A stretch of DNA of 64,000 nt from Methanoregula sp. PtaB.Bin085 (GTDB lineage Archaea > Halobacteriota > Methanomicrobia > Methanomicrobiales > Methanospirillaceae), in contig NZ_MVQB01000062.1 of NCBI RefSeq assembly GCF_002067035.1, positions 62,001 to 126,000 of the forward strand, read 5' to 3'. This document shows, piece by piece, positions 755-3,070 of this stretch. The notes under the pieces are model-generated. The model had not been told where the DNA came from and did not search any database. It saw only the letters and a list, made by a program, of their open reading frames with translations. Position numbers and translations under genes: made by a program. The stretch's first letter is position 1. Every line of letters begins with the position of its first letter.

Positions 755-1669
755 CTACCGGGAATCCTCAATGACAATCAGCCCGGGGGCAGGATACTTC
801 GGCGAACTTTCAACTCCCCCTGAGGAAGTTTCCAGCCTTTGAAGGGCAGTAGTACAATACTGGCGCGACACATCAATCCCGATGAACCGGCGCCCAAGCT
901 TGTATGCCACAAGGGAACTCGTCCCGGCACCGTTGAAGGGATCCAGCACGATGTCGTTCCTGTACGAGAAGAGTTTCATCAGCCGACGGGGCAGCTCTTC
1001 GGGAAACATGGCGGGATGGTCATAATCCTTCATCCGGATTTCCGGAGGAAACGACCACTTCCCCAGCACCCACTCTTTGAATTCCTCGGCTGTGATATCG
1101 ATATCCTCGCGCCTGCCGCTTTTCTTGTGCGTTTCTTTCGCAAATACTTCGATGAATTCCCAAGTGTATTTGATATAGGGCATCGAGGGTGATTTCCAGC
1201 TGCCCCATGCCGTGTACTTTGCGTTGTAATTGTTCTTCTCCCAGAGGAACTCGGCTTTCCAGAGCAGCCCGAGATCGGCCAGCTGGTGGGATATTATGTG
1301 GTGCGTCGGGATATAATCCGAGAAGAGTGGCTGGACGTTGACCGCGATGCGGCCACCCGGCTTGAGGACCCGCACACATTCGCGCCACACGGCATGCAGG
1401 TTCCCGAAATACTCGTTCCATTCATGGGTATCGTCGTGGGGGTCCTGGGCATATGAATGGCCGAAGTTATAGGGGGGGGACGTGACGACCAGGTCGATGC
1501 TCTGATCCGGGATATGGTCAAGGACTTTCAGGGCATCGCCGCAGATAATTTTGTTGATGAACGGAGATAACGCGGGTGATTCCTCAGACCGGAAGGTGTG
1601 TTTTGCCTCTTTGGATCCCTTCCGGATCCTGGCCTTTCCTTCCTTGTCCCGGACCTTCTCCGGTTTCAT
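755..1669 (-). CDS. Orphan DNA methyltransferase, SPPY type (probably N4-cytosine, beta class)
   Basis: A 304-residue protein. The catalytic motif IV is TSPPYNFG near residue 62; SPPY rather than DPPY is typical of N4-cytosine methyltransferases. The SAM-binding motif I, DPFNGAGTSSLVAYKLG, lies near residue 245 and is followed by FIGID. The order catalytic motif first, SAM motif last is the beta-class order. The N-terminal 35 residues are basic and low-complexity. No restriction endonuclease lies on either side, so it looks solitary. The start is the ATG at 1669; an inverted repeat sits directly upstream (1671-1697). The target sequence is unknown. CTAG is a candidate by analogy with known archaeal N4-cytosine enzymes; this is inference. 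Confidence 0.88.
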   Translation of the reverse strand: MKPEKVRDKEGKARIRKGSKEAKHTFRSEESPALSPFINKIICGDALKVLDHIPDQSIDLVVTSPPYNFGHSYAQDPHDDTHEWNEYFGNLHAVWRECVRVLKPGGRIAVNVQPLFSDYIPTHHIISHQLADLGLLWKAEFLWEKNNYNAKYTAWGSWKSPSMPYIKYTWEFIEVFAKETHKKSGRREDIDITAEEFKEWVLGKWSFPPEIRMKDYDHPAMFPEELPRRLMKLFSYRNDIVLDPFNGAGTSSLVAYKLGRRFIGIDVSRQYCTTALQRLETSSGGVESSPKYPAPGLIVIEDSR

Positions 1670-1697: not shown

Positions 1698-1796
1698 ACA
1701 GGAGTAAAAGGGTGCCTGTTCGTGCTGTCTGAACCAAATGCTGGTTTTGTGCGTTTTTATGTACTGACGACCAAGGATTCCCGTTGGAGATTAAAA

Positions 1797-2110
1797 AACC
1801 GGATCCCGATTTTCGTACGAAAATCGATCCGCGGTTTTGATCTCATAATCGATCCCTGGTTCTCATTTTGAAATCGATCCGCGATTGAAAAGCAGTTCTC
1901 AGATAAAAAGTACAGACGGAACGCAAAATCGGAACCCGATTTTCGTACGAAAATCGATCCTCGATTTTGAGATCAAAATCGATCCCCGGTTTTCATTTTA
2001 AAACCGGATCCCGATTTTCAGATCGCAATCGCGATCACGATCGCGATTGAAAAACCGATCCGGATCAATCGCGATCCGATTTTGATCTGCAAATCGGGTC
2101 GCGATTGAAA
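1797..2110. repeat. GATC-rich, AT/CG-alternating palindromic repeat region
   Basis: Part of a 669-bp gene-free stretch (1670-2338). The 20-bp perfect palindrome CGATTTTCGTACGAAAATCG occurs at 1807-1826 and 1937-1956, each inside a diverged module of about 90 bp (roughly 1797-1890 and 1927-2016). Recurrent pieces are GGATCCCGATTTT, AAAATCGATCC and GCGATTGAAA (1881, 2043, 2101). GATC occurs about 17 times between 1802 and 2132, several times the density elsewhere in this window. No believable protein is encoded. From about 2180 to 2250 the sequence becomes C-rich with repeated AACCTGC. The sufC promoter (TTTAAT near 2300) closes the region. Function is unknown. Confidence 0.75.
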
Positions 2111-2338
2111 GCACCCAGTATATCCTTAGATCCATTAAGTATGCGCTATGGTTACTTACGCTGGAACCGCTGGCACTCCCGGACCAACCTGCTAACATGC
2201 TACCAACCAACCTGCCATGCCCGGCGCACAACCTGCCAACCTTCTCCAACTTCCCGGCCCGCGCCGCGTTATACGACCAGGTATGTCCCGTTGAAAAGCG
2301 TTTAATGCCGCAGTCGCCATACATTCTTCGGTAGTACT

Positions 2339-3070
2339 ATGCTGCATATCGAACACCTCCACGTGAATATCGGCGACAAGGAAGTGTTGCGCGATATCAA
2401 CCTCCATATCAACGAAGGGGAGACCCATGTCCTCCTCGGCCCCAACGGGTCGGGGAAGACCACCCTCTTAATGACCATCATGGGGTTCTCCACGTATACT
2501 ATAACCAAAGGGACGATCACCTTCAAGGGCGAGGACGTGACCCGGATGCATTCCAACGAGCGTGCGAAACGGGGGATGGGGATGCTCTTCCAGCGCCCCC
2601 CTACCATCTCCGGCCTGAAACTCGGGAAGATGCTCTCCGCCATCTCCAAGACAAAACAGGAGAACATACCGGAACTGGCAAAGACCGTCCACATGGACAG
2701 GTTCCTCGAACGCGATATAAACAAGGGATTCTCCGGCGGGGAGATCAAGCGCAGCGAGGTGCTGCAGCTGATGATCCAGAACCCGGACTTCATCATGCTC
2801 GACGAACCGGAGAGCGGCGTCGACCTGGAGAACATCTCCCTCATCGGTACCAACATCGGGGCGCTGCTCGAGAAGGACAAGCACCTTGCGAAACGGAAGA
2901 AATGCGGGCTCGTCATCACGCACACGGGATATATCCTCGATTACCTCGATGCCGACAAGGGGCATGTGATGTGCGAGGGACAGATCCGTTGCCACGGGAA
3001 CCCCCGGGAGATCTTAAAGGACATCAAGCAGCGCGGGTACAGGGAGTGTATGGAATGCCGGAACCAGTAA
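2339..3070 (+). CDS. sufC: Fe-S cluster assembly ATPase SufC
   Basis: A 243-residue ABC ATPase without membrane segments. Walker A GPNGSGKTT lies near residue 34, the Q-loop FQRP near 83, the signature FSGGEIKRSE near 131 and Walker B FIMLDEPESGVD near 151. The signature and the DEPESGVD stretch are typical of SufC rather than of transporter ATPases. SufC hydrolyses ATP to drive cluster assembly on the SufB scaffold. It overlaps the sufB start by 16 bp, so the two are translationally coupled. No sufS, sufU or sufE is nearby, which is common for the minimal archaeal SUF system. A TATA-like TTTAAT about 35 bp upstream suggests a short leader. Confidence 0.95.
   Translation: MLHIEHLHVNIGDKEVLRDINLHINEGETHVLLGPNGSGKTTLLMTIMGFSTYTITKGTITFKGEDVTRMHSNERAKRGMGMLFQRPPTISGLKLGKMLSAISKTKQENIPELAKTVHMDRFLERDINKGFSGGEIKRSEVLQLMIQNPDFIMLDEPESGVDLENISLIGTNIGALLEKDKHLAKRKKCGLVITHTGYILDYLDADKGHVMCEGQIRCHGNPREILKDIKQRGYRECMECRNQ

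Follow-up and report, generated by a model that had tools for sequence, protein, structure and literature searches.

The repeat array described here belongs to a family of non-coding arrays in which ordered units of ~281 bp are built around a conserved core of two palindromes, and which is old in one clade of the genus Methanoregula. It lies in a window of 64,000 nucleotides (the whole stretch of DNA that was analysed; Methanoregula sp. PtaB.Bin085, contig NZ_MVQB01000062.1, positions 62,001 to 126,000). Tentatively, and with less than even confidence, we interpret the family as clade-specific arrays of half-sites for a putative DNA-binding protein with a role at the level of the chromosome; a REP- or satellite-like repeat is a nearly equal candidate. 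The family is apparently undescribed so far. No description of such a repeat was found in the literature, of which the coverage was incomplete and excluded supplements, and neither plasmid records nor viral contigs gave a match to the array.

A preliminary description of this locus had reported two perfect 20-bp palindromes, a richness in GATC and diverged modules of about 90 bp in a gene-free stretch near the start of a methyltransferase gene, and these observations were all confirmed. The perfect palindrome CGATTTTCGTACGAAAATCG occurs in exactly two copies, no further match with up to 3 mismatches being present in the window, while shuffled sequence gave zero matches even when 3 mismatches were allowed. 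Genome-wide, 10 sites of this type were found with up to 2 mismatches. Positions 1797-2110 contain 16 GATC sites (17 when extended to 2132), the highest density of any 314-bp stretch in the window, for which the runner-up has 9 and the median is 2. The two modules (1795-1886 and 1925-2016) are 84% identical at an offset of 130 bp, and repeat finding and TRF showed that both are composed of 25-bp units and that the array is a tandem repeat of period 25. The stretch first described begins at a distance of 128 bp from the methyltransferase start codon (ATG), and the array contains no convincing gene. Its limits were refined to about 1794-2108, and a core that had not been singled out before was recognised (Table 1). 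In the interval between the array and the sufC-type gene, imperfect ACCAACCTGC repeats are present at 2187-2260.

Table 1. Array features and neighbouring genes, in positions of the window
Feature	Position	Strand	Basis or remark
Beta-class DNA methyltransferase (N6_N4_Mtase)	755..1669	-	neighbour only; conserved with or without array
Approximate region added to the spacer when compared with array-free relatives	1715..2285		spacer sequences, alignment, lengths
Non-coding repeat array, GATC-rich subtype A	1794..2108		~ten dyads in 25-bp steps; repeat finding, TRF
Perfect palindrome CGATTTTCGTACGAAAATCG, copy 1 (GATT-n10-AATC dyad)	1807..1826		sequence match
Breaks in the dyad frame of the array	about 1892-1924, 2022-2037		repeat finding, TRF
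Perfect palindrome CGATTTTCGTACGAAAATCG, copy 2, within the second 92-bp module	1937..1956		sequence match, repeat finding
Dyad CGATTTTGAGATCAAAATCG, same frame as copy 2, 25 bp on	1962..1981		repeat finding
Conserved core: palindrome ATCGCGATCAcGATCGCGAT (from 2028), A-rich spacer, palindrome GATCCGGATC	2029..2071	+	relatives
Dyad CGATTTTGATCTGCAAATCG, final full unit	2077..2096		repeat finding
Putative SufC-type ATPase gene	2339..3070	+	neighbour only; divergently oriented to the methyltransferase in the majority of Methanoregulaceae examined

Similar arrays are found at about 15 other places in the genome that contains the window (G000; 2.9 Mb, 63 contigs), and complete genomes of relatives have about 12-16 each, with lengths of ~300-900 bp. 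The window array is matched end to end both at other loci of its own genome and in relatives. When the units were aligned, alternating GATT and AAYC half-sites became apparent. In 46 oriented arrays, the spacing GATT-n-AAYC had n=10 in 133 of 149 cases and the spacing AAYC-n-GATT had n=7 in 206 of 218, which together give the 25-bp period; the spacing is strict, while the filler sequence between the half-sites is variable. Autocorrelation of the arrays peaks at 25 and 281. The part that is best conserved in relatives corresponds to window positions 2028-2083, of which 43-bp pieces share 91-98% identity with other Methanoregula species, and its consensus consists of the palindrome ATCGCGATCAyGATCGCGAT, an A-rich spacer and then GATCCGGATC. 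In the genomes G018, G020 and G029, successive copies of this core are mostly spaced at 280-282 bp, and as many as four follow one another. The number of units varies between arrays, and copy number and internal order turn over.

The arrays are AT-rich (GC 0.33-0.47 compared with 0.43-0.61 in the flanks). Two subtypes are present in G000, namely the window type A with ~46-53 GATC per kb and a type B with ~16-32, the latter having mostly 12-26 in G018 and G020; flanks have 8-9 per kb overall. Since subtype B is poorer in GATC, the very high density that first drew attention to the locus is a feature of subtype A and not of the family.

The distribution of the family was determined with a sequence model of the core (R1). 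Arrays were detected in 28 of 39 Methanoregula genomes, and in none of 112 sampled genomes of the order outside this genus, for which stricter filters were used. In an orc1 tree of 37 genomes, one Methanoregula clade (support 88/90) contains three or more R1 matches in 24 of its 24 genomes. The remaining 13 are array-free except for G005 with six matches, G016 with two and G022 with one, and the presence label changes 2 times on the tree compared with 10.4 times when shuffled. The array at G005:C63:121379-121587 lies near a contig end in an otherwise array-free clade, and its score exactly equals that of G017:C18:14869; it may represent a transfer or an assembly chimera.

Many array loci have flanks that are syntenic between species (L165/L180/L204; L166/L186/L196; L171/L185/L195/L207; L173/L184/L194/L206; L187/L197; L188/L198; L189/L199), although in some of these pairs a distance of up to about 2-3 kb separates the end of the alignable DNA from the array. 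G018 and G020 differ by an inversion of the segment bounded by the G018 arrays at 967 and 1033 kb, and both ends of the inversion are at arrays. The breakpoint arrays (L183 and L184 versus L193 and L194) are in opposite orientation.

Between orthologous units of G018 and G020, the columns that are conserved in G000, G029 and G033 showed 4.0% differing cells, compared with about 11% for the remaining columns (p = 0.0008 in a core-anchored stack, the cells of which are not independent). No significant difference was obtained for the core as a block against the rest of the unit (8.0% vs 11.1%, p = 0.12), and a cruder mapping of whole arrays through a long HMM gave no difference in divergence.

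According to the reading we prefer, a putative sequence-specific protein would bind the GATT/AAYC half-sites as dimers and cover the array cooperatively. The resulting ~12-16 nucleoprotein clusters per chromosome, many of them at inherited sites, may organise the chromosome or help to segregate it rather than control neighbouring genes. This reading is preferred over a selfish repeat because of the strict spacing, the retention throughout the clade and the syntenic positions. It also draws on the lower divergence of conserved columns, the neighbouring genes in all orientations with no family or function in common, the dyad mismatches without G-U bias and an insertion sequence that reads the arrays independently. 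Several results count against it, namely the lack of a candidate binding protein beside the arrays, the core block that does not evolve significantly more slowly, the cruder mapping that gave no difference, the turnover of copies and their order, the origin of the window copy by insertion in one small clade and an enrichment near Orc1 that is weak outside G018 and G020. As sister clades live without arrays, any role would in addition be dispensable in the genus.

A strong contender, to which we give only slightly less credence, is a selfish or neutral repeat comparable to REP/BIME or satellite elements, that is, a non-autonomous palindromic family. Such a family would have been spread through recombination or a putative mobiliser and kept homogeneous by gene conversion and unequal crossing-over, its presence in intergenic DNA being tolerated. 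The history of the window locus is in line with such an element. Across Methanoregulaceae, the methyltransferase and sufC genes are kept as a divergent pair, with a spacer of mostly 113-225 bp and no array, and none was detected either in six relatives with spacers of 388-580 bp. An array is present in this spacer only in L069 (306 bp), L070 (663 bp) and the window (669 bp), and the three differ in unit order. Because an array at this site is confined to the window and its two nearest relatives, it entered between the two genes in this small clade. Similarly, a copy at L169:9419-10486 lies within ~1.07 kb that is missing from the syntenic site of G018 (L190:13392-13404). Varying unit numbers, the location of arrays at inversion breakpoints and the lack of a link to gene function also favour a selfish repeat.

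A further point in its favour is the use of the arrays as targets by an insertion sequence of G029, as REPs are targets of particular IS in bacteria (Tobes and Pareja, 2006; PMC1525189). This element (loci L204:9538, L205:9483, L206:661, L208:10157, L210:9016, L270, L271 and L272) has nearly identical copies, 11 of them full and two partial, and encodes a 313-aa transposase-like protein, the copies of which are identical. The motif GAT[T/G/C] is found 14 bp away from the junction in 11 of 13 cases, the other two having AATC or CATT. Of the 13 insertion points, 9 are in or beside arrays. The junction motif together with the location indicates that array units are recognisable DNA targets. In the target consensus of this IS, GAT[T/G] near -14 precedes a run rich in A and T that extends to the junction. 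However, no mobiliser was found among the array-neighbouring genes, and a selfish repeat does not readily account for the strict spacing with variable filler, the lower divergence of the conserved columns, or the retention in 24 of 24 species of the clade and at syntenic positions.

A more specific version of a chromosomal role, namely a centromere-like or chromosome-organising archaeal system made up of about a dozen satellite-like arrays with a putative bound protein at fixed places, partly around the origin, is conceivable and in our judgement rather unlikely. The number of arrays at most 135 kb away from the main orc1 was 4 in G018 (1.0 expected, p 0.014), 4 in G020 (1.2 expected, p 0.026), 3 in G029 (1.1 expected, p 0.10) and 4 in G062 (1.5 expected, p 0.058), the four tests not being independent. 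Since the sites are partly shared by descent and the arrays of G033 are far from its orc1, clustering near Orc1 or the origin is only suggestive. A strong claim of an origin cluster, based on G018 and G020, was dropped once G029 and G062 had been added, and placement of the origin by GC-skew sampling of G018 was uninformative. Array-like matches at G018:C1:434783 and G020:C1:406604 also lie 1.2-1.3 kb from the second orc1/cdc6 gene of the respective genome.

It is improbable that the arrays are cis-regulatory elements of their neighbours, such as promoters, terminators or operator arrays. They do occupy intergenic DNA, and the window array lies between two divergent genes, the second of which is suggested to be SufC by its sequence features and its place before a SufB-like gene. 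However, convergent, divergent and tandem neighbours are all seen and their functions are unrelated. Scanning of the flanking genes revealed neither a common theme nor a DNA-binding candidate, and the gene families next to arrays recur only as scattered pairs, save for one transposase in G029. In the window, the gene-proximal regions of the spacer are still alignable with array-free relatives on both sides. The arrays are not linked to particular neighbouring genes.

Even less probable is a family of structured non-coding RNAs. The core region of the window array folds well on the two strands (z -5.3 and -4.5), but other segments of the array fold little better than shuffled sequences (z -1.1 to -2.3) and the strands fold alike. 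Mismatches in the dyads comprise 63 G-U and 86 A-C pairs; with no G-U bias, there is no sign of pairing at the RNA level. Covariation of the inner arms of the dyads was not significant (p 0.05 and 0.26), and a search of Rfam 15 yielded nothing above the gathering score and a match at chance level only.

A link to the orphan methyltransferase beside it, with the array as a methylation-sensitive element for control or replication, had been proposed first and is in our judgement very unlikely. In its favour, the gene adjoins, the 16 GATC sites are present and a Dam-like enzyme probably methylates GATC in Methanomicrobiales (PMC10609329). Against it, the methyltransferase is kept in dozens of genomes without an adjoining array, relatives with a similar methyltransferase have mostly array-free spacers there (an outcome that the preliminary description had itself named as refuting the link), arrays occur at many loci without this gene, and the same array exists in a GATC-poorer subtype. 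The window array is probably not tied to the neighbouring methyltransferase. According to the same survey, the GATC enzyme of the order is a separate Dam-like orphan, and the Methanoregula group has further persistent orphans, namely m4C enzymes that target AGCT, GTAC and CTNAG (PMC10609329). Methylation of GATC in this cell is quite conceivable, but nothing connects it with the neighbouring enzyme. The other readings in the preliminary description have held up better, a protein-binding array still being the best and a decayed repeat its main rival. Contigs that carry the labels Chloroflexi/Anaerolineae and Thermoplasmata contain relatives of the methyltransferase with 50-65% identity, suggesting cross-domain transfer or mislabelled bins.

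The organisation and segregation of euryarchaeal chromosomes are a largely open field. Strictly spaced, position-conserved arrays that only part of a genus possesses offer a direct handle on it, the array-free sister clades serving as natural controls. Selfish arrays, too, would be of interest, as the counterpart in archaea of REP elements: an IS reads them, and a genome inversion has its ends in them.

Plasmid-type iteron or centromere arrays consist, as here, of short sites in rows at a fixed spacing. The present arrays differ in being chromosomal and multi-locus, in their alternating inverted half-sites and in their higher-order unit. Archaeal SegB sites and bacterial parS are likewise palindromic and scattered over the chromosome, some being enriched near the origin or the segregation locus (PMC12284271, PMC7333895). 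SegB, however, uses a single 13-bp motif, TCTAGASTCTAGA, mostly inside genes, whereas the arrays are intergenic with a different motif, and neither the consensus of the conserved core nor the array units examined contain TCTAGASTCTAGA. The repeats of Subirana and Messeguer (PMC6749651, PMC8161180) are non-coding, tandem and of fixed size with variable sequence, and nucleoid binding or small RNAs were suggested for them; the accessible part of their archaeal survey makes no mention of the array family. A fixed repeat length with variable sequence, which defines constant-size tandem repeats, is also found here, at 25 bp and ~281 bp and in two subtypes, whereas those repeats are described there as 20-21 or 52 nt long and from Bacillus. 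The likeness to REP, BIME and REPIN elements lies in being dispersed, intergenic, palindromic, multi-copy and hot spots for particular IS. REP/BIME elements themselves are short palindromes (20-40 bp) dispersed in intergenic DNA, most REPs having a GTAG or CGTC tag at one end (PMC3733652). By contrast, the arrays described here are long (~300-900 bp), their half-sites follow a strict period of 25 bp within units of 281 bp, and they are few per genome, syntenic between species and archaeal.
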